Shown here: in pieces, positions 7,356-57,873 of the stretch
How the letters are laid out: every line of letters starts with the position of its first letter
Position numbering within the stretch: position 1 is the first letter of the stretch
DNA from: Spirosoma oryzicola
GTDB lineage: Bacteria > Bacteroidota > Bacteroidia > Cytophagales > Spirosomataceae
Reading direction: 5' to 3'
Length of the DNA: 64,000 nucleotides
Assembly (NCBI RefSeq): GCF_021233055.1
Contig: NZ_CP089538.1
Location: 4,542,501-4,606,500, forward strand
The notes under the pieces: model-generated
Databases searched by the model: none
Told to the model about the DNA's origin: nothing
What the model saw: the letters and a program-made list of their open reading frames with translations, nothing else
Program-made: the position numbers and the translations under genes

Positions 7356-7383
7356 TGCGGTCAGGTTTGAGAACCTGACCGCA
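7356..7383. repeat. TTTGAGAA-loop inverted repeat, copy 1
   Basis: TGCGGTCAGGTT (7356-7367), loop TGAG, AACCTGACCGCA (7372-7383): a perfect 12-bp stem. It sits between the convergent GH9 and cheB genes, where a bidirectional terminator would be expected, but no T run follows on either strand. The core GTCAGGTT/TGAG/AACCTGAC is identical to those near 50013 and 57591. Confidence 0.85.
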
Positions 7384-7418
7384 TAGAAACAACCCGACCG
7401 AACACAAGATCACTTGTT

Positions 7419-8009
7419 TTAAGCGGGTTTGTTCAACGAGTTCACCAAAGCAATCAACTCCGGAATATCCAGAATAGAATCGACAGGTGCATTGGCGATA
7501 GCCTGCTGAGGCATAAAGGGAGTCTGGGCGGTTTCGGGTTTTTGCACAACCGTTGTTCCACCCGCTTTCTTAACCGCTACCAACCCCTGCGTACCGTCCG
7601 CGTTAGCGCCTGACAACAAGATACCAACCAGTTCTGGCCCAAACACATCGGCAGCAGACTCAAACGTTACGTCAAGCGACGGACGGCTGTAATTCACTTT
7701 TTCGGAATCATCGAGCGAAAACGTCAAATCTGGCTCGATCAGGAGGTGATAGTCGGCGGGGGCAATGTAAATGGTTCCTGGACTTATTCCGTCCTTATCC
7801 TCAACTTCTTTCACTGGGATTTTTGTCCTGCTGGCCAACAAGCTTTCCAGCGTCGAATCAACAGAATTCTTCCGGTGCAATACAATAATTACGGTAAATG
7901 AGAAGGAGGTCGATAAGGAAGGCAGCACTTTTAACAGTACATCGAGACCACCTGCCGAACCGCCTATTACGACAGCTTTGCAAGAAATAGTCAGCTTACT
8001 TTCCGCCAT
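7419..8009 (-). CDS. CheB-type protein-glutamate methylesterase, catalytic domain only
   Basis: A 196-aa CheB effector domain without the N-terminal receiver found in classical CheB. The Ser-His-Asp triad is visible: Ser in GGSAGG near the N-terminus, His in IVLHRK, Asp in SGANADGTQG. It would hydrolyse glutamyl methyl esters. It overlaps the end of cheR by 19 bp and is the last gene of a five-gene minus-strand signalling operon that contains no methyl-accepting chemoreceptor. The target may therefore be a non-chemotactic sensor, plausibly one of the long coiled-coil kinases of the operon. That target is inference. Confidence 0.88.
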   Translation of the reverse strand: MAESKLTISCKAVVIGGSAGGLDVLLKVLPSLSTSFSFTVIIVLHRKNSVDSTLESLLASRTKIPVKEVEDKDGISPGTIYIAPADYHLLIEPDLTFSLDDSEKVNYSRPSLDVTFESAADVFGPELVGILLSGANADGTQGLVAVKKAGGTTVVQKPETAQTPFMPQQAIANAPVDSILDIPELIALVNSLNKPA

Positions 8010-8800
8010 ATTTTTTCCTTGTTCAATTGCGTAAACGTAGACTTCAGCGCCGAAAATTTCAAGGTCTCTTTTGATCCTAGAGCCAGATAACCAAGCTGCC
8101 CCAGGCTATCGTCGAACAAATTCAAAACACGGTCTTGCAAAGCCTTGTCAAAATAAATCAATACGTTCCGGCAAAGAATAAGATCAAACTCATTGAAAGA
8201 ACGATCTGACACTAAATTGTGAATGGAAAAAATCATTTTTTCGGCTAGCGACTCGTCAAATTTCACCTGACCGTACATAGCGGTATAGTAGGAAGAAAAA
8301 TCCTGCACACCTCCCGATTCAATGTAATTTTCCGAATACTGCTTCATCTGAGCCAGCGGAAAAATACCTTTTTTTGCTTTGTCGAGAGCAGCCGGATTCA
8401 GATCGGTAGCATACAGTAAAGATTTGTGAAGGAGTTTAGCCTCTTTCAGCAAAATAGCCAAAGAAAAAACTTCTTCGCCGGTTGCACATCCGGCATGCCA
8501 TACGCGAATAAAGGGTTTGGTGGCTAACGTCGGAATGACTTCGGTTCGCAGCACTTTGTAAAAAGAAGGATCACGAAACATCTCCGTGACTGTGACGGTA
8601 ATTTCCTCTACAAATCGTTTCAAATAATCCGCGTCTGTTCGGATTCGGTAACGGAACTCGGCGAAACTAGGAAATTTGTCCAGCATTAAAAGCCTGACAA
8701 TTCGCCGTTTTAAGGACGCTTTGGCGTAGTTGGTAAAGTCATATCCGTACAATTCATACAGATCATTTACTAATAAATCAATTTCAGACTCTTCAATCAT
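7991..8800 (-). CDS. CheR-type methyltransferase
   Basis: A 269-aa SAM-dependent protein-glutamate methyltransferase. The N-terminal all-alpha CheR domain (about 1-70) is followed by the Rossmann domain with WHAGCATGEEVFSLAI as the SAM-binding loop and DLILCRNVLIYF near the centre. ATG 8800 is chosen; an in-frame TTG four codons upstream is the alternative. It follows the receiver gene with a 12-bp gap and overlaps cheB, so it is part of the same transcript. There is no TPR extension. It probably methylates a partner in the same signalling set rather than a flagellar chemoreceptor. Confidence 0.9.
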   Translation of the reverse strand: MIEESEIDLLVNDLYELYGYDFTNYAKASLKRRIVRLLMLDKFPSFAEFRYRIRTDADYLKRFVEEITVTVTEMFRDPSFYKVLRTEVIPTLATKPFIRVWHAGCATGEEVFSLAILLKEAKLLHKSLLYATDLNPAALDKAKKGIFPLAQMKQYSENYIESGGVQDFSSYYTAMYGQVKFDESLAEKMIFSIHNLVSDRSFNEFDLILCRNVLIYFDKALQDRVLNLFDDSLGQLGYLALGSKETLKFSALKSTFTQLNKEKIWRKVS

Positions 8801-8812
8801 TGCGTAACTCAA

Positions 8813-9178
8813 TTAAACACGCAGCAACAGTTGCAACAACCTGTCCACATCGACTGGTTTAGAAATATAATCGGCTGCTCCGGCCTCTAAACACTTTTCC
8901 CGGTCGCCCACCATCGCCTGTGCCGTAACCGCAATAATGGATGTATGACGACGCTTCTCAATGTTTTTTATCCGAGGGATTGCCTCATACCCATCCATTT
9001 CGGGCATCATCATATCGATTAGAATGATGTCAACTACCGCATCCGTTTTCAATAAATCGAGCGCTTCCTGCGCGCTATTGCAGGAAACACAGTCGAATGA
9101 TTTCGCTTTTAGGGTGGCCGTCAACGCAAAAATATTTCTTGCATCATCGTCAATTATTAAAACCCGTTTCTTACTCAT
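8813..9178 (-). CDS. Stand-alone response-regulator receiver
   Basis: A 121-aa CheY-like protein consisting of one REC domain and no output domain. The acidic pocket is IIDDD near residue 10, the phospho-acceptor Asp lies in IILIDMMMPEMDGY, and the conserved Lys is in DYISKPVD. It closely resembles the third receiver of the neighbouring hybrid kinase (DARNIFALTATL against DVRNIFSLSKAL), which suggests duplication from that domain. As a diffusible receiver it could carry phosphate from the hybrid kinase to other partners. Confidence 0.9.
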   Translation of the reverse strand: MSKKRVLIIDDDARNIFALTATLKAKSFDCVSCNSAQEALDLLKTDAVVDIILIDMMMPEMDGYEAIPRIKNIEKRRHTSIIAVTAQAMVGDREKCLEAGAADYISKPVDVDRLLQLLLRV

Positions 9179-9226
9179 GTTTCAGATTGTATAAGAATAG
9201 CCCGCTTACAAAAGACACGATTACTA

Positions 9227-12200
9227 TCAAGCCCGGTCGTACAACCAAACCCGTAACAACGAAATTAGCTGATCGATATCGACTGGTTTGGTAATATAGT
9301 CAGAAGCGCCCGCCTGAATGCATCGTTCCCGATCACCGGTCATTGCTTTGGCCGTAACCGCGATAATAGGCAACGATTTCCACTGATAATTCTCGCGAAT
9401 TTTTTTAGCCGTTTCATAACCGTCCATCTGCGGCATCATCATATCCAGCAACACCAGATCAATGGCTGGATTTTCTTCTAATTTTTGCAGCGCTTCTTTT
9501 CCATCCAATGCCGTGACAACGTTCATTTTATAATTCTCCAATGCCTTCGACAAGGAGAAGATATTTCTGACATCGTCGTCCGCTACAAGTACCGTCTTAT
9601 TCGTCAACACCTGGCTTAGTGCGCCTAGTTTTTTTCGATCCGACAAGGCACTGGGTGCTTTCCTATTTTCATCGACCAGATGAAGAAAAAGCGAAACTTC
9701 ATCCAGCATTCGCTGATACGAATGAGCCGTTTTAACAATAATTGAATCCGCGTATTTTTTGATCTTCAACTCCTCGGCCATCGACAGGCTTTTTCCCGTG
9801 TAGATGATAATCGGCAGGTTTTCCAGGCCCGGATTTTTCTTGGCTTCCTCTAGTGTATCGTACGCTTTTTTATCCGGAATACCCATGTCCAGAATGACAC
9901 AGTTGATTTCTTCCTGTTTGAGCGCTTGTATGCCTTCTGTTATATCACTTTTTAGTTCAGAATTGATGTTGAACGACTCCAGAAAATACGCTAAGGCCTT
10001 GGCATGTTTCGGGTTGTCTTCCACGATCAGTACTTTTTTAGAGGTACTATTCAGCACGTATTCTATTTTACTGAACACCTCCTGCATTTGCTCAAAAGCC
10101 ATCGGCTTGTCCATGAAGTCGACAGCGCCTTTCAAAATACTTTCTTTTTTGAGCTTGTGCGACGACATAATATGCACCGGAATATGTCGGGTTTTCGGGT
10201 CCGCTTTTAACGCATCCATTACCTGCCAGCCACTCATGACCGGCAATTGAATGTCCAGCAGGATACCAAGCGGTTTGTAGACACCGGCGAGTTTAAGCCC
10301 TTCATCACCCCGTACGGCCACAATGCCTTTATACCCTTTCTTGCGCGAATAATCCAGCAGCGACTTGGCAAAGCCGGTATCATCCTCAACGATCAAGATT
10401 ATTTTATCGTTTTCTGTAATCGTATCCCGATCATCAGGAATCGACGGCGGAATAACGGTACTGAGGTATTTACCCAATTCAGCTTTAACCGGTTCGGGTT
10501 CTTTTACTTCCGGGGCAGGTGCGGGTGTCGGCTCAGGCCGTCGGCTTACGTAATTAGTATCGGTTTGGGTAGCTGCCTGCGTATTGGCTATCGGCAAGTG
10601 AATGGTGAACGTACTTCCTTCATTTACCTTACTGGTCAATGTAATTTCGCCACCGAGCAACTTAGCCAGCTCCCGGCTGATAGAGAGTCCTAAGCCGGTT
10701 CCACCGTACTTGCGCTTCGTCGATCCATCAGCCTGCTGAAATGCTTCGAAGATGAGCTGTTGCTTTTCGGGTGGAATGCCAATGCCGGTATCCGCAACAG
10801 CAAACTGTAAGCCGGAGTCGGTTGATTCGGACCGTTTTACCGTCAACGTTACGTTACCGGAAGACGTAAATTTGAGTGCATTGGAAATCAGATTTTTTAG
10901 AATCTGTCCTACCCGCATTTTGTCCGTTTCGATAACCGCTGGCAAGCCTGGCGCTATGTCTACGTTAAATTCAAGTTTTTTCTCATTAGCCAATGGACCA
11001 AACAGAGCCTGCAATTCGTCCGTTATTTCCTGAATTGGTACACTCATGTACTCTAACTTCATCTGACCGGCCTCAATCTTGGACAGATCGAGAATTTCGT
11101 CGATCAGGCCAAGCAATCCGTTTCCAGACGACTGAATGACTTTGGCGTATTCGACCTGATCGTCGGTCAGGTTCTCTTCGTTATTTTCCGACAGTAATCG
11201 GCTAAGCAGCAAGATTGAGTTCAGGGGTGTCCGGAGTTCGTGCGACATGTTGGCCAGGAACTCTGATTTGTACCGGGTACTTATTTCCAGCTCTTCGGCC
11301 TTTTTCTGAATCTCCTCGTTTTTCTCTTCGAGCAGGAAGCTACGTTCCTCGAGTTCGGCATTGGTCTGTTGCAGTTCCTCCTGCTGTACGCGCAATTCCT
11401 CTTCGGAAGCCTGGAGCTTCAATGCCTGGGCTTCCAGTTCAGCATTCACATTTTCAAGCTCGTTATGCTGCGCCTGTAATTCTTCCGACTGAGCCTGTGT
11501 TTCTTCGAGGAAATTTTGCAGCTTCACATAGTCCAGTGCCGAATTAATCCCGATTGCCAGCGCATCCAGGTTAGACTCCAAGAAAGCAATTTCCATCGGG
11601 CTGGGCTTGCGTAGAAGCCCGATTTCTAACGCGCCCAGGCATACGTCCGCATAAACTAAGGGAGCGATTATGACCGAAGCAGGTAGTGCGTTACCCAAAG
11701 AAGAGTTGACGGCCAAGTACGACTCAGGCAGGTCCTCAATGATGATGGTTTTTTTAGCTTTAATCGCCTGACCAACCAACCCCTCTCCCGATACGATTGT
11801 TGTCGGTGCATGGCTGGCGGCATAACTACCTATCAGCTTAAAATTCGAATCGTTATCAATAATATACACTGTACCTAAAGGTGCCTGTAGGTACCCATTG
11901 ATCGTCTCAATCAGGTTATCGGCCAGCTTTTTCAGATCACGCTCCCCCCGAATGGCCTCCGTTAGTGTCAGCGTTCCCGTTTGCAACCAGTTTTTGTTTT
12001 CCAGTTCCGTAAAGGTACTTTCTAGCGCCGATGACATGGTGTTGAGCGCCTTTCCGATCCGTCCTAAATCATCGTCACGCGTATCTTCACTCCTCACGGA
12101 ATAATTACCCTCCGCGATATCGCCGGTAATGTCCTCCATCACACCGATTCGCCGGTTTGTTTCTTTAAATTCTGCTTCTGCTCTCAGCTGATTGGCGATC

Positions 12201-12856
12201 CGGTCGTCAAGGTCTTTTTTGATGCGCAGGTACGTACTGATGGTAATCATCACTGAAATGGCAGCGGCCAACAACAACAGAAAAGGCGTGTACGTGATGT
12301 ATATCTGCTGCTGCTCAATACGGGTGTTCAAGATCGCGCTCTCTTCTTTCTTTATGCGATTGACGGTTGTTCTGAGCCCATCCATTATCTTCTTACCCCG
12401 GACCATTTCGGCGTAGCGCGCAGTAGTATCGCGACTAAAGCCTTTATAGCGCCGTGTGAGATTGATGATGCGCTGCATCTGTTCGAATTTGGCTTCGTAC
12501 AGCGTTTTTAACTCGGCCAGATTTTTCTGCTGGGTCGTATTCTCTGCGGTAAGCGACTTTACAGTATTATAACTGTTGGTGACTTTATCATACGCTCCAT
12601 TGTAAGGTTGGAGGAAAAGTGGATCAAGCGTTAGCAAGTACCCACGCTGTCCTGTTTCAGCGTCTTTCACATGGGAGATGACGTTCTCCGACTCGATTAA
12701 TACCTGATTGGTGTGGTTGACTAATTGGGAATTAGTAATAAGCTTCTGAATGCTGTAATACGAAGCAACAAGACTGACAATCAACAGAATCGTTGATATG
12801 GAAAAGACAATCTGCAACTGTCGTATCACCGAGTTTGACGTCGAGTAGTGCGGCAT
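9227..12856 (-). CDS. Hybrid histidine kinase: CHASE3-HAMP-GAF-HisKA-HATPase-REC-REC-REC
   Basis: 1209 aa. TM1 at about 15-35 and TM2 at about 190-210 bracket a CHASE3 sensor (AETGQRGYLLT motif). HAMP follows, then GAF (about 300-440), and a long Glu/Gln-rich coiled coil (about 440-545) with TSEELQAQ-like heptads. HisKA has the phospho-acceptor His in FLANMSHELRTPLNS. HATPase has ADTGIGIP and GGTGLGLSI. Three receivers fill about 825-1205, with Asp in LLDIQLPVMSG, VILDMGIPDKKAY and LLDMMMPQMDGY. The middle one has an atypical post-Asp loop. It lies 22 bp after the REC-PAS-kinase gene. The multi-receiver layout suggests a phosphorelay or signal-integrating hub. Confidence 0.93.
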   Translation of the reverse strand: MPHYSTSNSVIRQLQIVFSISTILLIVSLVASYYSIQKLITNSQLVNHTNQVLIESENVISHVKDAETGQRGYLLTLDPLFLQPYNGAYDKVTNSYNTVKSLTAENTTQQKNLAELKTLYEAKFEQMQRIINLTRRYKGFSRDTTARYAEMVRGKKIMDGLRTTVNRIKKEESAILNTRIEQQQIYITYTPFLLLLAAAISVMITISTYLRIKKDLDDRIANQLRAEAEFKETNRRIGVMEDITGDIAEGNYSVRSEDTRDDDLGRIGKALNTMSSALESTFTELENKNWLQTGTLTLTEAIRGERDLKKLADNLIETINGYLQAPLGTVYIIDNDSNFKLIGSYAASHAPTTIVSGEGLVGQAIKAKKTIIIEDLPESYLAVNSSLGNALPASVIIAPLVYADVCLGALEIGLLRKPSPMEIAFLESNLDALAIGINSALDYVKLQNFLEETQAQSEELQAQHNELENVNAELEAQALKLQASEEELRVQQEELQQTNAELEERSFLLEEKNEEIQKKAEELEISTRYKSEFLANMSHELRTPLNSILLLSRLLSENNEENLTDDQVEYAKVIQSSGNGLLGLIDEILDLSKIEAGQMKLEYMSVPIQEITDELQALFGPLANEKKLEFNVDIAPGLPAVIETDKMRVGQILKNLISNALKFTSSGNVTLTVKRSESTDSGLQFAVADTGIGIPPEKQQLIFEAFQQADGSTKRKYGGTGLGLSISRELAKLLGGEITLTSKVNEGSTFTIHLPIANTQAATQTDTNYVSRRPEPTPAPAPEVKEPEPVKAELGKYLSTVIPPSIPDDRDTITENDKIILIVEDDTGFAKSLLDYSRKKGYKGIVAVRGDEGLKLAGVYKPLGILLDIQLPVMSGWQVMDALKADPKTRHIPVHIMSSHKLKKESILKGAVDFMDKPMAFEQMQEVFSKIEYVLNSTSKKVLIVEDNPKHAKALAYFLESFNINSELKSDITEGIQALKQEEINCVILDMGIPDKKAYDTLEEAKKNPGLENLPIIIYTGKSLSMAEELKIKKYADSIIVKTAHSYQRMLDEVSLFLHLVDENRKAPSALSDRKKLGALSQVLTNKTVLVADDDVRNIFSLSKALENYKMNVVTALDGKEALQKLEENPAIDLVLLDMMMPQMDGYETAKKIRENYQWKSLPIIAVTAKAMTGDRERCIQAGASDYITKPVDIDQLISLLRVWLYDRA

Positions 12857-12877
12857 GTTTACTTGGAAAGAAATGCG

Positions 12878-14467
12878 TTAATAGGTAGCGACTGGCTCAT
12901 TGACTTGCTGAACGGGCAGAACAAGGATAAATCGAGTTCCTTCATCCAGTCGGCTCTGGGCGGAAATAACACCGTTGTGTTTGTCAATATTCTTTTTGGC
13001 AATGGCTAGTCCGATACCGGTACCTTCGTAGCTGGTTCGGTTGTTCAATCGTTGGAAGATTACAAAGATCCGATCCAGGAATTTTTCGTCGAATCCGATC
13101 CCATTGTCACTGACGATAATGCGGCAGAACTGCCCATCGGCACTGGGTTCACTGTTCACGTCTTTACCACCAATGAGTTCGGCGCTAATGGTAATGACGG
13201 GCGCAACATCTTTTTTAGAGAACTTGAGCGCATTGCTGATCAGATTCTGGAAGACTTGCCTGATCCGTCCCGGTACCGTATCAATTATGGGCAATGAATC
13301 GATTGAAACAACCGCGCCCTTTTTGCTAATCGTGTCCTTAAAGTCAACCAAAATCTCGGTAAGCAATGTATTGAGGTTCGTTGGCTTGAACACCGCCGGT
13401 TTGGCTAATTGCGAGTATGCCAATAGATCATCAATAAGCTTCGACAAGCGAGCGGATGACTTAATGGACCGATCAAGATAAGAAATGGCTTCCGGGTTTT
13501 CTTTTAAGTACCGATCCTTAATGAGGTCGTTCAGGAGTTGTATTTTCCGTAACGGCTCTTTCAGATCATGGGATACCACCCAGGTAAATTGCTGAAGCTC
13601 GTGGTTGGTTGTTTCCAGCTCTGTATTTTTAAACAGCAATTCTTTCGTTCGGGTCGACACCTGCTCTTCAAGCAGCTCCGTAGTCATCTTTTGCGGGTGA
13701 ATGTCCGTGAAGGTACCCACCCATCGAACCGTTACGTCTTGCTGTTTTATGGGGATAATCCGCAGCAGATGGTATCGATACTCACCCGTAGCAAGCTTTT
13801 TCAAACGCACTTCACGCGTAAACTCAATTCCTCTCCCGAAATAGGTTGGCCACTCTCGACACACATCTTCGTCATCATGGTGAACAGCGGGAAAAGCCAT
13901 TGGGTCCATTGAGTAATCGAACCAGTACTCATTCGAGTATTCGATTCGTCCGTCCGTGTCGACCGTAAACGCCATTTGCGGCAACGAAGCCAGCACCAAC
14001 CGCAACTCTTCTACGCGTCCGGCCAGTTCTTCCTGCGCCCGCTTTCGTACCTCAATCTCATTACGGAGAGAGTCCTGCGTTGCTCGTAGTTCCTGCTGCT
14101 GTTCGTAAAGCCTTTGAAGCGTTTTGACCTTCAACACCAAAATGTCGGGATCAACAGGTTTTGTCAGGTAATCTATTCCGCCGGATGTATAGCCTTTTGT
14201 AATAAACTTTTTCTCAGTGTTGACAGCCGACAGAAAAATAATGGATGTGTCCTTCGACTTACTAAACCCACTTATTGCGTTAGCGACTTCAAAGCCGTCC
14301 ATCCCAGGCATTTGTACGTCCAGAATGATGACAGAGTAGTTCGTTTTGAGTATCTTTTTTAAGGCTTCTTCACCTGAATCTGCAATGTCAACAGAAAACT
14401 TATGAAGCTCTAAGATCTTTTTAAGCGGAAGGATGTTTTCTGGTCTATCATCAACAATAAGAACCAT
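12878..14467 (-). CDS. REC-PAS-histidine kinase
   Basis: A 529-aa soluble kinase, first gene of the operon. An N-terminal receiver (about 1-120; Asp in VIILDVQMPGMDGF, Lys in DYLTKPVD) leads through a coiled coil to a PAS domain (about 155-275). HisKA follows with His in FTWVVSHDLKEPLRK, then HATPase with SDNGIGFDEKF and YEGTGIGLAIAKK. The SHDLKEPL form is typical of phytochrome-like/PAS kinases that act on separate receivers. A receiver at the N-terminus makes it a response regulator with kinase output, so it can take phosphate from another kinase. The ATG at 14467 has a 383-bp intergenic region in front, shared with the divergent acyl-CoA synthetase. Confidence 0.92.
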   Translation of the reverse strand: MVLIVDDRPENILPLKKILELHKFSVDIADSGEEALKKILKTNYSVIILDVQMPGMDGFEVANAISGFSKSKDTSIIFLSAVNTEKKFITKGYTSGGIDYLTKPVDPDILVLKVKTLQRLYEQQQELRATQDSLRNEIEVRKRAQEELAGRVEELRLVLASLPQMAFTVDTDGRIEYSNEYWFDYSMDPMAFPAVHHDDEDVCREWPTYFGRGIEFTREVRLKKLATGEYRYHLLRIIPIKQQDVTVRWVGTFTDIHPQKMTTELLEEQVSTRTKELLFKNTELETTNHELQQFTWVVSHDLKEPLRKIQLLNDLIKDRYLKENPEAISYLDRSIKSSARLSKLIDDLLAYSQLAKPAVFKPTNLNTLLTEILVDFKDTISKKGAVVSIDSLPIIDTVPGRIRQVFQNLISNALKFSKKDVAPVITISAELIGGKDVNSEPSADGQFCRIIVSDNGIGFDEKFLDRIFVIFQRLNNRTSYEGTGIGLAIAKKNIDKHNGVISAQSRLDEGTRFILVLPVQQVNEPVATY

Positions 14468-14850
14468 CTTTGTGATAACTGTTTGTAACGTTGTATAAGC
14501 CGCAATTTGCGGTTTTTTTGTTAGAGTAAGCGGATTTCTTCAGGATGAGTCGTTGTGAACGCTCAGAAACGCCCCCCTACCAAATAGTATGTGAAGATAA
14601 CGCTGTTAGACAAGTGCCACCAAATCAATCGTGTTCATAACAATCAAAAAACGGTGTTACTTCTTGTATGGCCCGGCTGAATAGTCGATATGGCTTGGCC
14701 AGTTACTTACTCACTTTCTCTTTTGTCATGCGTGCATGGATCATGCCAGCAACTTCCCCTGTTCACCTTCGCAATTAGTTCTATTTTTTCTATTGATAGT
14801 TCAAACTATTGTTCATTTTTACGTTTCTTAGAAAAGACTATTCATGAATC
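14468..14850. other. Divergent intergenic region, 383 bp
   Basis: This gap separates the signalling operon (leftward) from the acyl-CoA synthetase gene (rightward), so promoters for both are expected. No exact TAnnTTTG box was found. One clear structure is AAGCCGCA (14497-14504) pairing with TGCGG plus T's (14508-14515), with a T7 run after it. It is terminator-like for plus-strand transcription leaving the antisense side of the operon. No reading frame is credible. Confidence 0.4.
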
Positions 14851-16530: not shown

Positions 16531-16614
16531 ACAATTGCCCACTGACAACATATAGAACCCGTAGCGGTTTATTTTTCACAGCCAACGATCCACAACGCAT
16601 CAGGCTCCTCACTA

Positions 16615-17106: not shown

Positions 17107-17121
17107 GGTGTTTTGGCATAA

Positions 17122-17161
17122 AACAAGAAGGCCCGCATTCTCAAATGCGGGCCTTCTTGTT
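17122..17161. terminator. 18-bp palindromic terminator with TTCTCAAA loop
   Basis: AACAAGAAGGCCCGCATT (17122-17139), loop CTCA, AATGCGGGCCTTCTTGTT (17144-17161): a perfect stem between the convergent phosphoesterase and ftsH genes. A terminator role in both directions is likely, although the T run is weak. Its loop context TTCTCAAA is the reverse complement of the TTTGAGAA octamer in the dispersed hairpin family. Confidence 0.85.
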
Positions 17162-17174
17162 TACTTATTCTATC

Positions 17175-25611: not shown

Positions 25612-26511
25612 CTAGAACAAGGGAGCTACCTCTTTGGGACGATCAGTTGTAATAATGTCCCCTCCTTGCCGGAATAGTTCGCGGTATCCAGCAGTAGCCT
25701 CTTCTAACGGTTTCTCGTCCAGTTGATTCGCTCCGTACGTACCGACAGAGCAGAGCATACCAAGTTTATGCAACCGCTTATAGAACGTAGCGGGTTGTAG
25801 TTTCTGCGGAGTCAACGCAATTAATCGGCCTGTTGCGGGTAGCTTTTCTTTCTCAAACCGGTCCAGATCAGCCATGCTGTTAACGCCCACCGCCAGCCAA
25901 AGTAATGGGAAACGGTCCCGCATCCGTTGCGCTTCAGCAACCGAGTAGCAAATCACAAAAACCGAATACTCCGCCCGATGCTTCAGTACTTTGTCCATGA
26001 CTTTAATAGGGTCAGTCCCCGGCTTTACATCGAGCGCCAGCACATACCGATTCTTATTCCAGTCCAAAACCTCATCGAAGGTTGGCATCCGTTGCTGGGT
26101 TCGTTTCCCGGATAAATCATTCAGAAAGATCTTTTTCAGATCAGGAAGCGACCACTCAGCTACCGGTCCCGTTGCGTTCGACTCCCGATCTAAAGTAGGA
26201 TCGTGCAGCAGCACGTAATTGCTGTCGCGGGTGATTCGCACATCCATCTCCAGGATAGCATTGGGTAACACACTGGCGGTTTGGTTGAACGTTAGAATCG
26301 AATTTTCCGTATCCGACGCGCCCGGCCCACCCCGGTGTGCCAGTATAAATGGCGATTTCCGATCAGAGCGGTATTGCAGAAAATCATCAATCGTTTTACT
26401 GTCTTTAAATCGGTCAACGGCTTGTGCGACGGATTCGCTCGAAACAAGGCCAAGCAGTCCGAAGCAGTAACACACAATACCTAAAAAACGCGCTTTACGT
26501 CTCTTTTTCAT
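25612..26511 (-). CDS. Exported glycerophosphodiester phosphodiesterase
   Basis: A 299-aa GDPD-family enzyme with a basic N-terminus and signal peptide (about 1-30, ending SVAQA). The TIM-barrel catalytic set is visible: His-Arg in LAHRGGPG, Glu and Asp in ILEMDVRIT, and the second His in VLLHDPTLDR. It cleaves glycerophosphodiesters to glycerol 3-phosphate and an alcohol in the periplasm. It converges with the patatin gene 21 bp away. A 32-bp inverted repeat lies about 75 bp upstream of its start, possibly ending transcripts from the MBL gene. Confidence 0.9.
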   Translation of the reverse strand: MKKRRKARFLGIVCYCFGLLGLVSSESVAQAVDRFKDSKTIDDFLQYRSDRKSPFILAHRGGPGASDTENSILTFNQTASVLPNAILEMDVRITRDSNYVLLHDPTLDRESNATGPVAEWSLPDLKKIFLNDLSGKRTQQRMPTFDEVLDWNKNRYVLALDVKPGTDPIKVMDKVLKHRAEYSVFVICYSVAEAQRMRDRFPLLWLAVGVNSMADLDRFEKEKLPATGRLIALTPQKLQPATFYKRLHKLGMLCSVGTYGANQLDEKPLEEATAGYRELFRQGGDIITTDRPKEVAPLF

Positions 26512-26587: not shown

Positions 26588-26664
26588 TTTCAGTGGAGTC
26601 GGTTTCTCAAAACCGACACTTTGCAGTAATCTGTGTCGGTTTTGAGAAACCGACTCCACTGAAA
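26588..26664. repeat. 32-bp perfect inverted repeat carrying two TTTGAGAA hairpins
   Basis: The arms 26588-26619 and 26633-26664 are exact 32-bp reverse complements around a 13-nt spacer. Each arm is itself a hairpin: GTCGGTT, TCTCAA-type loop, AACCGAC. The right arm runs into an A/T-rich tail. It lies between the MBL-fold gene (ending 26688) and the GDPD gene (starting 26511), both leftward. The arms contain TTCTCAAA and TTTGAGAA. Confidence 0.85.
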
Positions 26665-44948: not shown

Positions 44949-44994
44949 GTGCTGTCGGCGGGGACGCCCGCCCGGTTCTCAAAACCGACACCAC
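44949..44994. repeat. 46-bp composite repeat, copy A
   Basis: Runs from GTGCTGTCGG to CCGACACCAC. It has an imperfect outer stem (GTG.TGT.GG against CCGACA.CAC), a GC-rich inner hairpin (GGCGGGG/CGCCC) and a second inner hairpin, CGGTT/CTCAA/AACCG. It aligns base for base with copy B at 51987-52032 except at about ten positions. It lies between the TMEM220-like gene and the TPR gene, both leftward. Confidence 0.8.
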
Positions 44995-45771: not shown

Positions 45772-45804
45772 TTTGGTCGTTTGGCTACTATTTAATTAAC
45801 TTTG
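45772..45804 (+). promoter_or_regulatory. Promoter of the SRP RNA gene
   Basis: TTTG at 45772-45775, 21 nt, then TAACTTTG at 45797-45804, an exact -7 box. The predicted start about 5 bases later coincides with the first paired base of the SRP RNA. Confidence 0.7.
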
Positions 45805-45808
45805 CATC

Positions 45809-45907
45809 GGCAAATCGGTGCTACCAGCTCCTGCTGAATCCCCCAGGTCTTGACCGAAGCAAGGGTAGGTGGTCGTAGCGGTGAGACATTGGTTTGCCAT
45901 TTTTTGT
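45809..45907 (+). ncRNA. ffs: Small signal recognition particle RNA (4.5S-type)
   Basis: Not a reading frame. The conserved SRP helix-8 region is present: CCCCCAGG (45840-45846 region) on the 5' side and GAAGCAAGGGTA (45856-45866 region) on the 3' side, the symmetric-loop bases CAGG and AGCA that bind Ffh. The ends pair: GGCAAA (45809-45814) with TTTGCC (45893-45898), and GCTACCA (45820-45826) with TGG and GTAGC (45870-45879). A T run follows at 45900-45905. The apical loop is not the usual GGAA type. Length of about 90 nt fits bacterial small SRP RNA. It partners Ffh in membrane-protein targeting. Confidence 0.85.
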
Positions 45908-47984: not shown

Positions 47985-47999
47985 TTTATACGTATAGCT

Positions 48000-48680: not shown

Positions 48681-48705
48681 TCATCTTCAGATAATTTCTT
48701 GCCAC

Positions 48706-48729
48706 AGCCTCTCATTAGAGGCTTTTTTG
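48706..48729 (+). terminator. Intrinsic terminator after the FtsE-like gene
   Basis: AGCCTCT (48706-48712), loop CATT, AGAGGCT (48717-48723), followed by a T run. Confidence 0.85.
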
Positions 48730-48840
48730 TTGCCTATAAAACTGCCTAGGGATTCTACTAGATTATTGGTTGTTCATTGAAACAGCCATTGAAAATGAGG
48801 CAAAATAACGTTGCTTTGGTGTTTCGATCAATCGATTGCC

Positions 48841-50007: not shown

Positions 50008-50012
50008 CTAAT

Positions 50013-50048
50013 GTCGTGGGGTCAGGTTTGAGAACCTGACCCCACGAC
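50013..50048. repeat. TTTGAGAA-loop inverted repeat, copy 2
   Basis: GTCGTGGGGTCAGGTT (50013-50028), loop TGAG, then its exact 16-bp complement (50033-50048). It lies 6 bp after the GH26 stop. The core is the same as copies at 7356 and 57591; the outer stem bases differ. Confidence 0.85.
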
Positions 50049-50124
50049 GACAGACGCGTTGAGGGTAATCCATAAGTCCGACTTGTTTTCCGCTTATCCA
50101 AGTTTTGCCCGACACGGTTGAATG

Positions 50125-50150
50125 ATTGCGTATCTTTGTTTTTACGCAAT
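50125..50150 (+). promoter_or_regulatory. Promoter with flanking 8-bp inverted repeat, M61 gene
   Basis: TATCTTTG (50131-50138) is an exact -7 box. ATTGCGTA (50125-50132) and TACGCAAT (50143-50150) form a perfect 8-bp inverted repeat that overlaps the box and straddles the likely start, as an operator would. Leader to the ATG is about 30 bases. Confidence 0.5.
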
Positions 50151-50175
50151 TTTCTACGCATTCAATTTCTAGTAT

Positions 50176-51972: not shown

Positions 51973-51986
51973 ATGCCATCTTTTTT

Positions 51987-52032
51987 GTGTTGTTGGCGGG
52001 GCCGCCCGTGCGGTTTGAGAACCCGACAGCAC
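51987..52032. repeat. 46-bp composite repeat, copy B
   Basis: Runs from GTGTTGTTGG to CCGACAGCAC. Same layout as copy A at 44949, but the inner loop reads TTTGAGAA instead of TTCTCAAA, i.e. it is inverted relative to the rest of the element. It lies 14 bp after the M61 stop and directly next to the 32-bp palindrome at 52042. Confidence 0.8.
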
Positions 52033-52041
52033 CTGGGATAC

Positions 52042-52109
52042 TAAGAAATTGGGGTCGTTAGTGGTGTCAGGTTCTCAAACCTGACACCACTAACGACCCC
52101 AATTTCTTA
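52042..52109. repeat. TTTGAGAA-family inverted repeat, 32-bp perfect stem
   Basis: Arms 52042-52073 and 52078-52109 are exact 32-bp complements around the loop CTCA. The core GTCAGGTT/CTCA/AACCTGAC is shared with other copies, with the loop in the opposite sense; the outer 23 bases are unique. It lies between the convergent M61 and porX genes, ending 9 bp before the porX stop. Confidence 0.9.
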
Positions 52110-52118
52110 TACTCTACC

Positions 52119-53687
52119 TTATCGTTTAGCCGTCAGATAGGCGAATGGAATAATCATTTCTTCCAGTGAGACACCACCGTGCTGGAATGTATTCCGATAG
52201 TGATTCACGTAGTAGTTGTAGTTGTTCGGATACGCGAAAAAGTAATCTTCCAGCGTAAACACGTATGCCGTTGATACGTGGGGCTTAGGCAGGAACAGAC
52301 GCTCTGGTTTACGACCGACAAACAAGTGGTTATCATCGAAGCCCAGGTTCTTGCCTTGCTTATAACGCAGGTTTGTGTTCGTCTCCCGGTAGCCAACGAT
52401 TTTGGCCGGTTTCTGTACCCGAATCATTCCGTGGTCGGTTGTAACAACGAGCCGTCCACCTTTGGCGGCAATTTTTTGTACGAACTCCAGCAGTGGCGAA
52501 TGCAAAAACCACGACCGCGTAATGGAACGATAAGCCGACTCGTCCGGAGCCAGTTCCTTAATCATCGCCATGTCGGTACGGGCGTGGGATAGCATATCCA
52601 CAAAGTTGTACACAATCACGTTCAGATGATTTTGTAGTAAGTTGTTAAAGTTGTCGACCAACGATTTGCCCTGACCAACGTTTAGAATTTTGTGGTAGGA
52701 CGTTTTTACGTTCAGGCGACTTTGCTCAATCTGACGGCGTAAAAATTCGTCTTCGTGGTTGTTTAACCCTTCGTCTTCACTGTCGTCATTAACCCACAGA
52801 TCCGGATGCTTGCGCTCCATTTCGCTCGGCATCATTCCCGAAAAAATAGCGTTCCGGGCAAAGCCTGTCGTCGTGGGCAGAATTGAGTAATAGGACGATT
52901 CTTCTTCGACCGTAAAGTACTCAGCCAATAGCGGTTCAATAACTTTCCACTGGTCGTACCGCAGGTTATCGATCAGGATAAAAAACAGCGGCCCCGAGTT
53001 ATTGAATTGATCCAGCAAGGGAAACACTTTTTTGCGCATCAGCTGGTGCGACATAACTGGACTGTCTGCCTTAGGATCGTTGAGCCAGTCCTCGTAGTTG
53101 TCCATGACGAACTTACAGAAGGTCGAGTTAGCCTCACTTTTCTGCATGTTCATTACTTCACTCATGCTTCTATCCTGCGACCCATCCAGTTCCAGCTCCC
53201 AGTAAATAAGCTTTTTATAAACATCAGCCCATTCGTTGAAATCCATGCGGTCGTTGTACTGCATAGAAATATTTCGGAAATCCTGCTGGTAGCCGATGTT
53301 GGTACGTTCCGTCACCAGACGCTTGTTGTCCAGAATTTTTTTGACCGAAAGCAGAATTTGGTTCGGGTTGAGTGGCTTGATGAGGTAGTCGGCAATCTTG
53401 GAGCCAATCGCTTCTTCCATGATATGCTCTTCCTCGCTTTTGGTGATCATCACAACCGGCAGGTTTGGCCGCATCTGTTTGATCTGCGCAAGCGTTTCGA
53501 GGCCGGTCATACCAGGCATCATTTCATCTAAGAACACGACATCGTAATTGCTCTGCTCTACCTCTTCCAGTGCATCGGCCCCGCTGTTTACGGGTGTCAC
53601 ATCATAGCCTTTATTTTTCAGAAACAGGATGTGCGGCTTGAGCATGTCAATCTCATCGTCGGCCCATAGTATCGAATAATTTTGCAT
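52119..53687 (-). CDS. porX: PorX, response regulator/phosphatase of type IX secretion
   Basis: 522 aa. An N-terminal receiver (ILWADDEID; Asp in VVFLDEMMPGMTGLE; Lys in DYLIKPLN) is joined by a helical linker to a PglZ/alkaline-phosphatase-fold domain (about 205-520) with FILIDNLRYDQW, STTTGFARNA-like TTTGFARNAIFSG and VTTDHGMIR. This layout is specific to PorX, which with PorY controls type IX secretion and hydrolyses cyclic oligonucleotides in studied species. ATG 53687 is chosen over an upstream start because the receiver begins at once. porY is not in the window. Confidence 0.94.
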   Translation of the reverse strand: MQNYSILWADDEIDMLKPHILFLKNKGYDVTPVNSGADALEEVEQSNYDVVFLDEMMPGMTGLETLAQIKQMRPNLPVVMITKSEEEHIMEEAIGSKIADYLIKPLNPNQILLSVKKILDNKRLVTERTNIGYQQDFRNISMQYNDRMDFNEWADVYKKLIYWELELDGSQDRSMSEVMNMQKSEANSTFCKFVMDNYEDWLNDPKADSPVMSHQLMRKKVFPLLDQFNNSGPLFFILIDNLRYDQWKVIEPLLAEYFTVEEESSYYSILPTTTGFARNAIFSGMMPSEMERKHPDLWVNDDSEDEGLNNHEDEFLRRQIEQSRLNVKTSYHKILNVGQGKSLVDNFNNLLQNHLNVIVYNFVDMLSHARTDMAMIKELAPDESAYRSITRSWFLHSPLLEFVQKIAAKGGRLVVTTDHGMIRVQKPAKIVGYRETNTNLRYKQGKNLGFDDNHLFVGRKPERLFLPKPHVSTAYVFTLEDYFFAYPNNYNYYVNHYRNTFQHGGVSLEEMIIPFAYLTAKR

Positions 53688-53797
53688 GCAGTCTGGCTTT
53701 TCAATGGTTAATAAATTCGTCGGAAAACACTTATAATACATTCCATTTAAGGCAGTTCATGTTCGATTCAGAACCGGTCGAATGCCCTAAAACAAGG

Positions 53798-53805
53798 CAA
53801 ATGTA
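53798..53805 (-). promoter_or_regulatory. -7 box upstream of porX
   Basis: TACATTTG reading leftward is an exact TAnnTTTG match about 110 bp before the porX start, implying a leader of about 100 nt. No clear -33 element was found. The rest of the 341-bp gap (53688-54028) is AT-rich and holds the promoter of the LysM gene, without an evident box. Confidence 0.45.
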
Positions 53806-54028
53806 TTGAGTAGAAGGTCACCCTCTTCTAAACATCAAACGCCCGCTTGTGTTTGGACGGTTCATAATTAAGGTTTTTTAACAAACCGCACAGGCGTTTT
53901 ACTACCGATAAATCACCCGTAACCAGGCGATCCGACGAGGATGATAAAAGTTGGCTAACTTTTTACGCTATTTTTACGGCAATCTCTATATATTGAATTC
54001 CCTATCGGATTTTGGTTAGTTCTAACCC

Positions 54029-55144
54029 ATGAAAAAATTAGTAGTTCTCACTGTGCTACCGCTGCTGGTAAGTAGTCTGGCAAGCGCCTATACCGTGGCC
54101 GATTCAGTGGGTGTTGAGAAAAAAGACGGTAAACGGTTTATTCTGCACCGCGTCGATCAGGGGCAAACCTTGTACGCTATTGCTCGGCGCTATTCCAGTT
54201 CGGTGAGTGCGATTAAATCGGCAAATCCTAATATAGGTAATGCCGTTCGATTCGCTCAAGTGGTTCGGATTCCAATTGCTGATGGCGCGCTTAGCCGGAA
54301 AGAAGCGAAAGCTATCGACAAGGCCATTCGAAAGGAAGAGAAAGAAAAGGATAAGGAAGCCAAAAACGATACGGGTACTTCGACGAAAACGGCGGAGCGG
54401 CAGAACAAAGAAGCCCGTAAAAGCAGCGATCCAGCCAAAGCAGGTATTCACGTAGTAGAATCTGGCCAGACGTTATACAGCCTGGCGGTTCGTTATGGCG
54501 TGTCGCAGGCCGATCTTCGCAAATGGAATAACCTACCCGGCAACAACGTCCTGATCGGACAGGCACTAATCGTTACGGAGAAAGCTTACCAGGCCCGCAC
54601 ACCTTCTACCCCCGTTGCGACTGCGCCCGTAAAAGTGCCAACGCCAGCTAATGCCGATACACCCGCTCGTACCGTACCCAAAGTAGAGCGTCCGGCTCCG
54701 CGAAAAAGTGAGTCGACAGCAAAAGTAGAAACGCCCAAGCCCGAAAATACGACTGCGCCTAAAACCGAGAATCAGCCCAGTTCGCCTACTTCATCGTCAG
54801 CAACGGAGAAATCGGAGGAAGTTGAAATAGAAACGCCCAGACCGGGCAACGACGCGCCAATGCCAACGCGTGGCCGACGGATTGCCACGAGTGGCGTTGC
54901 CGAAATGATCGACGGCGATGGTTCGGGTAAGTATCTGGCGCTGCACCGCACCGCCCCCATTGGTACGCTGGTTCAGGTACGCAACGAATTCAACAACCAA
55001 AGTTTGTGGGTGAAGGTGATTGGCCGGCTTCCCGACACGGGCGTCAATGACAAGATCCTGGTAAAACTGTCAACGCAGGCATTCGCGAAACTTTCCCCGC
55101 AAGACCGGCGTTTTCGGGCAGAGGTCAGTTACATTGCTCCTTAA
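54029..55144 (+). CDS. LysM protein with RlpA-like C-terminal domain
   Basis: 371 aa, signal peptide about 1-20 (ending SLASA). LysM 1 lies at about 33-78 (VDQGQTLYAIARRYSSSV) and LysM 2 at about 140-185 (VESGQTLYSLAVRYGVSQ), each about 45 residues, separated by a Lys/Glu-rich linker. A Thr/Pro/Lys-rich stretch (about 190-285) leads to a double-psi beta-barrel-like end (LALHRTAPIGTLVQVRN, VKVIGRLPDTGVNDKILVKL) similar to RlpA. It probably binds peptidoglycan in the periplasm. The catalytic Asp typical of RlpA was not confirmed. Confidence 0.85.
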   Translation: MKKLVVLTVLPLLVSSLASAYTVADSVGVEKKDGKRFILHRVDQGQTLYAIARRYSSSVSAIKSANPNIGNAVRFAQVVRIPIADGALSRKEAKAIDKAIRKEEKEKDKEAKNDTGTSTKTAERQNKEARKSSDPAKAGIHVVESGQTLYSLAVRYGVSQADLRKWNNLPGNNVLIGQALIVTEKAYQARTPSTPVATAPVKVPTPANADTPARTVPKVERPAPRKSESTAKVETPKPENTTAPKTENQPSSPTSSSATEKSEEVEIETPRPGNDAPMPTRGRRIATSGVAEMIDGDGSGKYLALHRTAPIGTLVQVRNEFNNQSLWVKVIGRLPDTGVNDKILVKLSTQAFAKLSPQDRRFRAEVSYIAP

Positions 55145-55214
55145 ACAGTTTTCGGCGGTAACCTAGTCAACGCATTGCGCATCGATTTCTGCTGAAAACG
55201 GACAACCTAAACGT

Positions 55215-55427
55215 ATGGAAACGAAAGAAGAACGCATTGCCCGGCGAAATCGAGAACGGGATAAGAAAATGAAATCCTCACCGGGTTACGTTACGTTCAG
55301 CATCATGTTTACGCTGGCTTATCCATTTATTGCGGTATTCACCTTCGTCATGTCAACGCTGTTGGCTATTTTTTCGAGCGTGTCCCGGGTAATGGCCTGG
55401 GCCGTCAGTGGAGGAAAATCACATTGA
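55215..55427 (+). CDS. Small membrane protein
   Basis: 70 aa: a strongly charged N-terminus (ETKEERIARRNRERDKK) and one long hydrophobic stretch (about 26-60). No known family. Its stop overlaps the start of the next gene by 4 bp (TTGA), which supports that it is translated. Confidence 0.65.
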   Translation: METKEERIARRNRERDKKMKSSPGYVTFSIMFTLAYPFIAVFTFVMSTLLAIFSSVSRVMAWAVSGGKSH

Positions 55428-56191
55428 CACATACCCAACTTTCTGATTTACTTAACGAGAAGGCCGATCAGTACAATCGGCCTTCATTTATTGATCGCGA
55501 TCCCATCAGCATTCCGCACCGCTTTTCGCAAAAGCAGGATATTGAAATCATGGGATTCTGGTCAGCCGTATTAGCCTGGGGACAGCGACCGGTAATTCTA
55601 AAAAAGTCAACCGAGTTGGTCACCCTGATGGATGGTGCTCCGTACGACTTTATCCGGAACCACGAGGAAAGCGACCTCAAGCGGTTTCTAGCTTTTAAGC
55701 ACCGCACCTTTAACGCCACCGACGCCCTGTACTTTCTGCATTTTTTCCGTCAGTATTACCAGCAGAACGACTCGCTGGAAGATGCCTTTCTGACTGTAGA
55801 GAACTCCACCGTTGAACCCAATCTGATCGCTTTCCACGACCGCTTTTGTGGGCTTACTGACTTCTTTCCCGAACGGACTCGTAAGCACATTGCCACGCCC
55901 GCCCGCAATTCATCGTGCAAACGACTGCTGATGTTTTTGCGCTGGATGGTTCGCCGGGACGACCGGGGTGTCGATTTTGGGCTTTGGACACGCCTTCGCC
56001 CTGATCAACTGGTTATGCCGATTGATGTTCACGTCAACCGCGTAGCGCGTAAGCTGGGCTTGCTGGTCAGACCGCAAACCGATTGGAAAGCAGCATTAGA
56101 ACTCACCGAAAATCTGCGCCAGTTTGACGGCATGGACCCAGTACGGTACGATTTCGCTTTATTCGGGCTGGGCGTCGAAGGCGAAATGTAA
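55424..56191 (+). CDS. TIGR02757 family protein
   Basis: 255 aa. The sequence shows the family pattern: SFIDRDPISIPHRFSQ, DIEIMGFWSAVLAWGQR, FLHFFRQYY and the HhH-like end with PIDVHVNRVARKLGLL and DPVRYDFALFGLGV. The C-terminal part resembles helix-hairpin-helix DNA glycosylases, but function is unknown. TTG 55424 overlaps the upstream stop (TTGA); no ATG precedes it in a sensible place, so coupled translation from TTG is likely. Confidence 0.85.
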   Translation: MTHTQLSDLLNEKADQYNRPSFIDRDPISIPHRFSQKQDIEIMGFWSAVLAWGQRPVILKKSTELVTLMDGAPYDFIRNHEESDLKRFLAFKHRTFNATDALYFLHFFRQYYQQNDSLEDAFLTVENSTVEPNLIAFHDRFCGLTDFFPERTRKHIATPARNSSCKRLLMFLRWMVRRDDRGVDFGLWTRLRPDQLVMPIDVHVNRVARKLGLLVRPQTDWKAALELTENLRQFDGMDPVRYDFALFGLGVEGEM

Positions 56192-56279
56192 GGCTTCACG
56201 TTATGCATTCATAACCCATTCGTAAAAACGGTAAACTGTCGGTAATAAGCACGAGTCGAACAATTCGTTATTTTGCCGC

Positions 56280-57536
56280 ATGACAACTCCGTGGCGCATT
56301 TTTGGCTTAGTAACGACCTGCTGGCTATTTTCAGTAACGCTTCTTTTGGCGCAGATCCGACCGAAGAAAGCCTTATTTATTATCGTAGATGGGATTCCGG
56401 CGGATGTCATTGAGCGGGAATCGACGCCAAACCTGGACAGCATAGCCAAGGAAGGTGCTTACAAACAGGCTTATGTGGGTGGTATCAAAGGCACGTACTC
56501 GCAAACGCCAACCATTTCGGCAGTCGGGTACAACAGCCTGCTGACGGGTACCTGGGTTAACAAGCACAACGTCTGGGACAATAGCATCAAAGCACCCAAC
56601 TACCACTACCCGACTATTTTTCGGTTGTTTAAAGAGCAGTATCCGACGAAAAAGATCGCTGTTTTTTCCAGTTGGGTCGATAACCGAACAAAGCTTGTGG
56701 GTGAAGGACTCGCTCAGACGGGCAACCTCAAACTTGATTACCACACGGATGGCTATGAACTGGACACGGTACGTTTTCCGCACGATCCGGAACGTGATTT
56801 CATGGCCAAGATCGACCATCAGGTCGTATCGGATGCCGTTGCATCAATTCAAAACCAGGCTCCTGATCTGACCTGGGTATATCTCGAATACACCGACGAC
56901 ATGGGCCATCGTTATGGCGACAGTCCACCCTTTGTCAAAGCCGTACACCAAGTGGATGCCGAGATTGGCCGCATCTGGAACGCTATTCAGCAGCGGCAGA
57001 AAAACAACGGGGAAGACTGGCAGATTTTTATAACGACCGACCACGGCCGGGATGAGCAAACAGGCAAGAATCACGGTGGGCAGTCGCCCCGGCAGCGCGC
57101 TACGTGGCTAGTTACAAACACCAAAAACCTCAATGCATATGCTGAACGGTTTCAGCCAGCCGTTGTCGATATCATGCCCACAATGGCCCGTTTCCTGACC
57201 GTTTCGATTCCCAAGGAACTGAGTCGGGAGATTGATGGCATCCCGCTCACGGGTTCTGTTTCGTTAGCGGAGCCAGTGATCCAGCCTAAACCAAACCAGT
57301 TAGACATAACCTGGAAAGCGCTGGCGCAAACCGGAACGGTCAACGTATGGCTGACAACAACCAATCAATTCGAAACGGGCGGTAAAGACACTTACACGCT
57401 GATGGCAAAGGTCCCGCTCTCGAAGGAACACGTAGTGATCGGGACAAGTAAACTACCTTCGTCATTTTACAAGATCGTGCTGGAAGGTCCGTCCAACACG
57501 GTAAACCGCTGGGTCGTGCTTGGTGAACAGAAGTAG
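56280..57536 (+). CDS. Exported nucleotide pyrophosphatase/phosphodiesterase-like protein
   Basis: A 418-aa alkaline-phosphatase-superfamily enzyme. Signal peptide about 1-25 (ending LLLAQ). The first metal Asp is in ALFIIVDGIPADVI, the likely nucleophilic Thr is in SQTPTISAVGYNSLLTG, and further ligands are in TTDHGRDE and NHGGQS. The pattern is of the NPP type rather than PafA. The C-terminal 90 residues form an extra beta domain. It is followed by a TTTGAGAA inverted repeat. Confidence 0.85.
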   Translation: MTTPWRIFGLVTTCWLFSVTLLLAQIRPKKALFIIVDGIPADVIERESTPNLDSIAKEGAYKQAYVGGIKGTYSQTPTISAVGYNSLLTGTWVNKHNVWDNSIKAPNYHYPTIFRLFKEQYPTKKIAVFSSWVDNRTKLVGEGLAQTGNLKLDYHTDGYELDTVRFPHDPERDFMAKIDHQVVSDAVASIQNQAPDLTWVYLEYTDDMGHRYGDSPPFVKAVHQVDAEIGRIWNAIQQRQKNNGEDWQIFITTDHGRDEQTGKNHGGQSPRQRATWLVTNTKNLNAYAERFQPAVVDIMPTMARFLTVSIPKELSREIDGIPLTGSVSLAEPVIQPKPNQLDITWKALAQTGTVNVWLTTTNQFETGGKDTYTLMAKVPLSKEHVVIGTSKLPSSFYKIVLEGPSNTVNRWVVLGEQK

Positions 57537-57873
57537 TTCTAAAGCGTGTAGTCTATTACTGATCCGTGAACTACGTTATCAAGTTTGGTGCTGTCAATAG
57601 AGTCGTGTGGTCAGGTTTGAGAACCTGACCACACGACTCTATTGACAGAGTTCATAAACTACTGATTGAAAGATGTGAAACTGGTTGACGTTGTTCACAC
57701 TAAGATGCCAATCCATTTTATGGCCGATTGGCGCGCCAATTGGTCAGTTTCTGCCATTTTTTCTGCTGTAGCTGGCTACGGAGAAATTGGGCAGCCATTC
57801 TCCTTTTCGTAAAAGAAATAAACAAAATTATGGTTCGGCAACTTACTTTAGGAAACCATCTTTGCCAGGCTTT
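57537..57873. other. 337-bp intergenic region with repeat and GC-rich palindrome
   Basis: Contains the 27-bp inverted repeat (57591-57648) and, further on, the perfect 14-bp palindrome ATTGGCGCGCCAAT (57727-57740). The remainder is AT-rich and includes upstream in-frame starts for the aldose epimerase frame that lack conserved residues. Near matches to the -7 box, such as CATCTTTG (57857-57864), lie close to the epimerase ATG. Confidence 0.5.
57591..57648. repeat. TTTGAGAA-loop inverted repeat, copy 3
   Basis: Arms 57591-57617 and 57622-57648 are exact 27-bp complements around the loop TGAG. The inner GTCAGGTT/AACCTGAC core is identical to copies 1 and 2; the outer 18 bases are different yet fully paired. 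It lies 55 bp after the phosphodiesterase stop. Confidence 0.9.

Follow-up and report, generated by a model that had tools for sequence, protein, structure and literature searches.

Double-foot repetitive extragenic palindromic (REP) sequences, in which GT[AG]G at one end is matched by its complement at the opposite end, have been described together with the Bacteroidetes-rich TnpA-REP subclasses 2.4 and 2.6, and Bacteroidetes subclasses of the REP-associated tyrosine transposase (RAYT) with "atypical secondary structures" are on record as well (PMC6006769; this and the other papers are cited for the parts drawn on here). We analyzed a 64-kb window of the 7.33-Mb Spirosoma oryzicola genome (G000:C1:4542501-4606500, where G labels denote genomes and L labels loci), in which dispersed hairpins sharing a loop octamer had been predicted. 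Because two-footed REPs and Bacteroidetes RAYT subclasses are already described, this hairpin family belongs to a known kind. As in the system of PMC6006769, the hairpins are dispersed intergenic palindromes with GTGG/CCAC feet that stand beside a RAYT gene in a member of the Bacteroidota, and inverted doublets occur. Unlike the REPs in the cited parts of that paper, they have perfect stems extended by copy-specific flanking sequence, one loop flip, and nested cores. The RAYTs found here, with about 178 aa and NHIH and YIH motifs, resemble the entries for subclasses 2.4 and 2.6 in a table of that paper in length and motif.

The inverted doublets, such as those at 26588-26664 of the window and 3' of the RAYT gene of G000, are also similar to REPINs (PMC3116915). 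Unlike REPINs, many copies here are single two-footed palindromes, and flank-derived arms are not described in the parts of that paper used here. Complementary stem changes between members are shared with the GTAG/CGTC-tagged REP families (PMC3733652), whose stems measure 5-13 bp in the feature table of that paper, whereas stems here reach 40 bp (other REP literature drawn on, PMC2817692 and PMC8266576). Published marks of template switching are a flank present again as its reverse complement, arms that match each other, and an inverted spacer (PMC8794818, PMC8604942). The template-switch hairpins of those two papers likewise combine reverse-complement copies that give perfect stems with arm homogenization and spacer inversion; they concern RNA genes and yeast coding DNA in the parts cited, whereas the present features occur at copies of a mobile palindrome. 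In the literature other than subscription papers, we found no report of REP growth by flank copying, no paper linking REPs to template switching, and none linking RAYTs to quasipalindromes. We propose, with a probability of roughly 0.68, that the hairpins are REPs of a RAYT system and that their variable, complementary outer stems come from fold-back copying (template switching) at the hairpin.

A double-foot REP family in Spirosoma

The hairpins are a dispersed double-foot REP with the consensus GTGGTGTCGGTTTTGAGAAACCGACACCAC, accompanied by a 46-nt variant whose second arm is GC-rich. The 30-mer form has a perfect 13-bp stem and a TGAG loop (-14.9 kcal/mol as DNA, z -7), and the 46-mer form, which is present in the window at 44949 and 51987, folds into a two-armed junction. 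The octamer TTTGAGAA occurred 10 times in the window, counting both strands, compared with 3.2 expected, and 0 of 100 shuffles reached 10; the enrichment test proposed with the original prediction did not refute the family. Nine of the 10 sites lay within or adjoined stems, as the original prediction had claimed, with the exception of 25850, which falls in an open reading frame (25612-26511) and has no hairpin. Eight of the occurrences constitute one family in seven loci (Table 1), and the remainder are the coding site and the loop of the ftsH terminator at 17122, which had been wrongly counted as a member. The core GTCAGGTT/TGAG/AACCTGAC, previously attributed to three copies, is common to four of them (7356, 50013, 52042, and 57591).

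The ftsH hairpin at 17121-17162 was ruled out as a family member, since its terminator position is kept genus-wide and its loop and stem differ among relatives. The 3' ends of 29 ftsH orthologues showed a comparable hairpin in most cases, with stems and loops that were unrelated as judged by eye. Because orthologous ftsH terminators have unrelated stems and loops, the TTTGAGAA loop at this ordinary terminator is coincidental. The loop as a stand-alone signal was also ruled out, given these unrelated terminator loops in the genus and the REP loops that differ between species.

What is conserved is a unit of about 30 nt, composed of the foot GTGGT, GTCRG, and the loop. The loop is not universal, and TTTAAGAA, TTGAAGAA, TCTGAGGA, and TATAAGTA were found in the same frame; the predicted combination of a conserved loop with a free stem was therefore half right. 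The left foot reads GTGGT in 37 of 54 elements, and in 44 of the 54 the foot is completely paired to the opposite end. In 464 kb, consisting of the window and 400 kb of adjacent sequence, there were 35 perfect hairpins with a stem of at least 10, among which TTCTCAAA was the sole 8-base loop context that recurred (8/35, the ftsH terminator included).

Genome-wide, GGTTTGAGAACC gave 33 matches and the strict pattern GTGGTGTCN{8,38}GACACCAC gave 69, a few of which overlap at nested sites, compared with 0 for either in reversed controls. The distribution among species is patchy: strict matches were present in 27 of the 36 genus genomes (69 in G000, 30 in G008, 20 in G043, 19 in G042, 14 in G011, 13 in G018, and fewer in the others), and the reversed control over the 36 genomes gave one match, in G017. 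Matches of the 30-nt core in named DNA comprised 12 stretches, 11 from Spirosoma and one from a contig of a Cytophagales metagenome-assembled genome. At the gathering score, the hairpins of the window matched no Rfam family, and the sole match in the window was a small signal recognition particle (SRP) RNA. Of the 33 GGTTTGAGAACC matches in the genome, 5 fall within the 64-kb window, a density about 17 times the genome average.

All 14 pattern-recognized elements in the 464 kb are intergenic, where open reading frames cover 88.5% of the sequence, and so is the degenerate element at 51987, which the recognition pattern missed. The gaps that hold the 14 elements are tandem in eight cases, convergent in five, and divergent in one, and 13 of the 14 elements lie downstream of at least one gene, in agreement with the predicted placement. 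A search of six genomes recovered relatives of the window sites, with 69-83% identity across the query stretches, and these lacked the element, as is expected for mobile elements; they are too distant for details of the events, and no relative locus was recovered for site 26604.

A RAYT gene and its orthologues beside the repeat

The lead toward a REP/RAYT system was borne out by a RAYT gene in the same genome (C1:1979048-1979581, L031/L248), which has an extended hairpin on its upstream side, 51 bp away, and an inverted doublet on its downstream side. Its product scored 88.7 bits against NF047646 (REP_Tyr_transpos; cut-off, 80) and 24.3 bits against PF01797 (cut-off, 23). The profile matches in the G000 genome were one Y1_Tnp match, one NF047646 match above the cut-off, and a weaker one at 52.7 bits. 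Close orthologues with 66-70% identity are present in G008, G039, G013, G010, and G011. The REP family was found within 800 bp of the gene, on at least one side, in all five close orthologues and in none of nine remote homologues (24-34% identity). The HUH motif reads YIH in G000 and HIH in the five orthologues, and all six share Y..NPV[RK]AG. A sequence search of the RAYT against solved structures gave no match. In G047, a RAYT-like gene broken by stop codons was observed (L256, G047:C18:287868-288392).

Outer stems specific to each copy

The outer stems differ in every copy and are nevertheless fully complementary, which confirms this part of the original prediction. In the fetched G000 sequence, the pairing extended past the intact 30-mer core by at least 6 bp in 22 of 40 cores, by 0-2 bp in 18, and by 3-5 bp in none. 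The corresponding numbers for at least 6, 0-2, and 3-5 bp were 10, 5, and 4 of 19 cores in G043; 9, 1, and 0 of 10 in G018; and 2, 1, and 0 of 3 in G047. When the partner flanks were shuffled (n = 500), there was no case of an extension of at least 6 bp. With a looser core, the numbers were 24, 28, and 2 of 54, obtained from 71 candidate cores after removal of 17 that had fewer than 7 perfect inner pairs; among the removed cores were some evident members with a mismatch (e.g., L163, L011, and L164). Because the loci were drawn by core matches, all of these figures are proportions among recognizable copies.

The arms were specific to the copy: among 351 pairs of 27 extended copies, just 9 shared an 8-mer, and all of the shared sequence was REP sequence contributed by nested copies. 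This restriction of shared arm 8-mers to nested REP sequence ruled out subfamilies defined by longer conserved arms. Every Watson-Crick pair type occurred at each of the outer positions 1-8. The extended stems contained 450 Watson-Crick pairs, 3 GT pairs, 3 AC pairs, and 16 others, in copies selected for long pairing, which limits mismatches; the equal counts of GT and AC indicate that wobble pairs were not favored over AC.

The extended left arms (362 nt) consisted of 120 G, 110 T, 67 C, and 65 A, which differed from the left arms of 25 non-REP hairpins (259 nt; 117 A, 61 G, 53 C, and 28 T; p = 4e-6), so that, taken together, the arms are not halves of terminators. The group also lacks the pattern of intrinsic terminators (an A-rich left arm with a T-rich right arm or a T tract). 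The idea of a terminator or decay signal is therefore not supported for the group, while single copies, such as L016, look terminator-like. The 5' side of the arms was rich in G and T in non-nested copies (126/173 in G043, 110/177 in G000, 60/98 in G018, and 25/29 in G047).

Further peculiarities of the stems were observed. The G/T-rich 5' arms in the four genomes look as if partly assembled from foot-like GTGGTG units. The perfect 40-bp stem at L024 (core at 1634; 179,114-179,133 of the window plus adjacent 400 kb), with the loop CAAA, is the longest among the G000 REP copies read, and its arms include half of a long-form REP. Nested palindromes, with a REP core within the arms of another REP, occur at L108, L115, L160, L163, and L215; L108 has three tandem GTGGTGTCG units per side, of which the innermost is the core's own foot.

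Flank copies between closely related species

G043 and G047 show 94% identity around ftsH, and the flanks of all 20 G043 elements were located in G047; the states of the sites are our interpretation of the alignments, here and in the second species pair below. A REP was present in both species at eight sites (L187, L190, L191, L194, L196, L198, L199, and L200), whereas G047 had a REP-like remnant at two (L204 and L206) and lacked a REP at the other 10. In three of these REP-free cases, the G043 palindrome reaches the end of a gene, namely, L189 (GTAAATAG), L193 (GGTATTAG), and L197 (TGAATAATG). The left sequence was the same in G047 at all three, save one base at L193 (GATATTAG), and so was the protein end, save one residue at L189. 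The left arm agrees with the end of the gene in the relative, stop codon included, at 8 of 8 nt for L189/L227 and at 7 of 8 nt for L193/L236. The inverted copy of the flank at L189 and L193, which are two of the 20 G043 sites compared, was not found in G047 within 250 nt with at most one mismatch.

Changes were also seen where both species carry the element. At L191, L194, and L199, the whole arms differ together between G043 and G047, and at one of the eight shared sites (L194/L239), the loop is exactly flipped from TTTGAGAA to TTCTCAAA within a shared stem. In the second pair, G018 and G001 (94% identity), 17 of 18 flanks were located; three sites are shared (L213, L216, and L219), G001 has a remnant at two (L208 and L215) and no element at 11, and L217 could not be aligned. 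Both sides of the foot have changed at L216, with GTGGTGTC/GACACCAC in one species and GTGTTGTC/GACAACAC in the other.

A third case of a gene end in an arm involves the RAYT gene itself. In G008 (L249), a 25-bp stem around AGGTTTTAAGAAACCT has in its left arm the last 17 nt of this gene (ATCGAGACGTGTTCTAA, ...YRDVF*), the complement of which stands downstream, whereas the five other orthologues have no inverted copy. The protein end HYR[DE][LVI]F is common to the RAYT orthologues except L252 (HYLEVF). An arm made of coding sequence that relatives conserve should be the older one, and the other G008 arm would thus be the copy. Units of AGGTTTTGAGAAACCT, akin to the G008 core, adjoin other RAYTs of the group (L252 and L253). 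As read from the alignments, a reverse-complement copy of a flank is present at three sites, two by comparison with a relative and one by comparison with orthologous genes. Two marks of template switching were found, a flank copy that is absent from the relative or orthologues (L189 and L193; the RAYT end at L249) and a spacer inversion (L194/L239).

Possible origin of the outer stems

In the fold-back explanation, the RAYT would spread the REP as single-stranded hairpins, and the outer stems would arise during or after insertion. A DNA 3' end at a strong REP hairpin would pair with its own other arm, copy the neighboring flank, even a gene end, and then go back to the normal template. Through such copying of the neighboring flank, every copy would acquire an individual long palindrome, and the process could also maintain the match between the arms and flip the loop. 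We infer that the flank was copied in one step, in which the RAYT may take part; extended arms in G018, which has no RAYT above the cut-off, favor host replication.

Several observations weigh against this explanation. In G047, a short partial match (TACC) remains at L193, and a different 23-bp hairpin follows the same stop codon at L189. The site L197 is ambiguous, because the copy could derive from an inverted repeat of the G047 type; at this site, G047 (L230) has a 17-bp inverted repeat with an 18-nt spacer that holds the same flank, with one end base different, 48 nt downstream. Between the flank-derived arm and the foot there are further symmetric nucleotides (8 at L189, 21 at L193, and 5 at L197), which are beyond explanation by one flank copy. 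The abundance of G and T on the 5' side of the arms (126/173 in G043) likewise counts against it. The G008 core AGGTTTTAAGAAACCT is a variant without the GTGGTGTC foot. Since the first His of the HUH motif is replaced by Tyr in the G000 RAYT, the enzyme may be inactive now, and its present activity is doubtful on the basis of this residue, though the REP copy number of G000 is the highest of the 36 genomes. G018 has 13 strict REP matches, yet its three NF047646 matches, the best at 55 bits, are below the cut-off, indicating that the elements persist or spread without a recognizable close RAYT. The final contrary points, from the sites L214 and L218, are given with the insertion alternative below.

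A single reaction that joins and copies is a doubtful refinement of the fold-back explanation. The RAYT would join only the 5' foot of the REP hairpin to a DNA 3' end, and the 3' foot, paired beside the junction, would act as the primer for flank copying. The element would then enter with an inverted copy of the target rather than with a direct repeat. Where the enzyme joined both ends, the copy would be armless, which would account for a two-peaked arm length.

It is unlikely as an overall explanation that REPs insert in the single-stranded loop of existing hairpins (terminators or older REPs), in which case the unique outer stems would be the old hairpins. The G001 hairpin at L214/L265 is homologous in its outer arms and differs at the tip, a pattern that suits insertion into the tip of a hairpin, and the empty site at L218/L269 (GCTGC|GTAGC) is weakly palindromic, with a short partial symmetry; these two sites favor insertion at an older or weak hairpin. 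The relative's site at L197/L230 is itself a hairpin with 17-bp arms, though the REP is inside one arm and not in the loop, and the nested palindromes listed above carry REP halves in both arms. However, the outer arms taken together do not resemble terminators (A65/T110 versus A117/T28; p = 4e-6), the surroundings of the relative's L193 site gave no inverted repeat of at least 9 bp, the relative's hairpin at L189 has other arms, and the arm at L249 is conserved coding sequence. Terminator stems with a REP in the loop were accordingly rejected as the general case on arm composition and kept for single sites.

Selection on a structural RNA or terminator family, whose stems drift while compensatory mutations preserve pairing, is very improbable. 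The location of 13 of 14 elements downstream of genes and the many pairs changed on both sides within the core and foot would suit it, but the arm length is bimodal, GT pairs are no commoner than AC pairs (3 versus 3), most copies have no T tract, and the arms change jointly between species of 94% identity. Least credible is a RAYT-independent palindromic repeat lying near the transposase by chance, since the repeat, although abundant in four genomes that lack a close RAYT orthologue (G043, G042, G018, and G047), flanks the source genome's own gene and 5/5 close orthologues but 0/9 remote homologues.

The mechanism of REP movement is an open question, and pairs of sites with one flank reversed in species of 94% identity provide a footprint for models of transposition and replication. 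The results also suggest that covarying perfect stems in a dispersed hairpin family can stem from copying and not from selection on RNA structure, which calls for caution when RNAs are sought by covariation. Palindromes that enter and copy gene ends also act locally as a source of intergenic change.

Features of the window

Table 1. Members of the REP family and non-member octamer sites in the 64-kb window
Feature	Position	Strand	Remark
REP hairpin, core GTCAGGTTTGAGAACCTGAC	7356..7383		foot altered to GTGCG/CGCA; no flank extension
Inverted REP pair (REPIN-like doublet)	26588..26664		cores 26598-26617 and 26635-26654; outer pairs matching 32/32
Long two-armed REP (GTGCTGTCGGCGGGGACGCCCGCCCGGTTCTCAAAACCGACACCAC)	44949..44994	-	
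REP hairpin	50013..50048		perfect 16-bp stem; foot GTGGG/CCCAC
Long two-armed REP	51987..52032	+	feet degenerate; adjoins hairpin at 52042
REP hairpin	52042..52109		perfect 32-bp stem (13-bp core stem and 19-bp copy-unique arms)
REP hairpin	57591..57648		perfect 27-bp stem; foot GTGTG and 14-bp unique arms
Non-member, bidirectional terminator of ftsH and convergent neighbor	17121..17162		loop reads TTTGAGAA
Non-member, TTTGAGAA within coding frame	25850..25857	-	no hairpin

The small SRP RNA gene of the window is of the Bacteroidales type (Rfam RF04183) and lies at 45801-45903. A second dispersed palindrome, AAACCTATAAGGTTT...AAACCTTATAGGTTT, was observed in two species, at L229 in G047 and near 2585 of L215 in G018.

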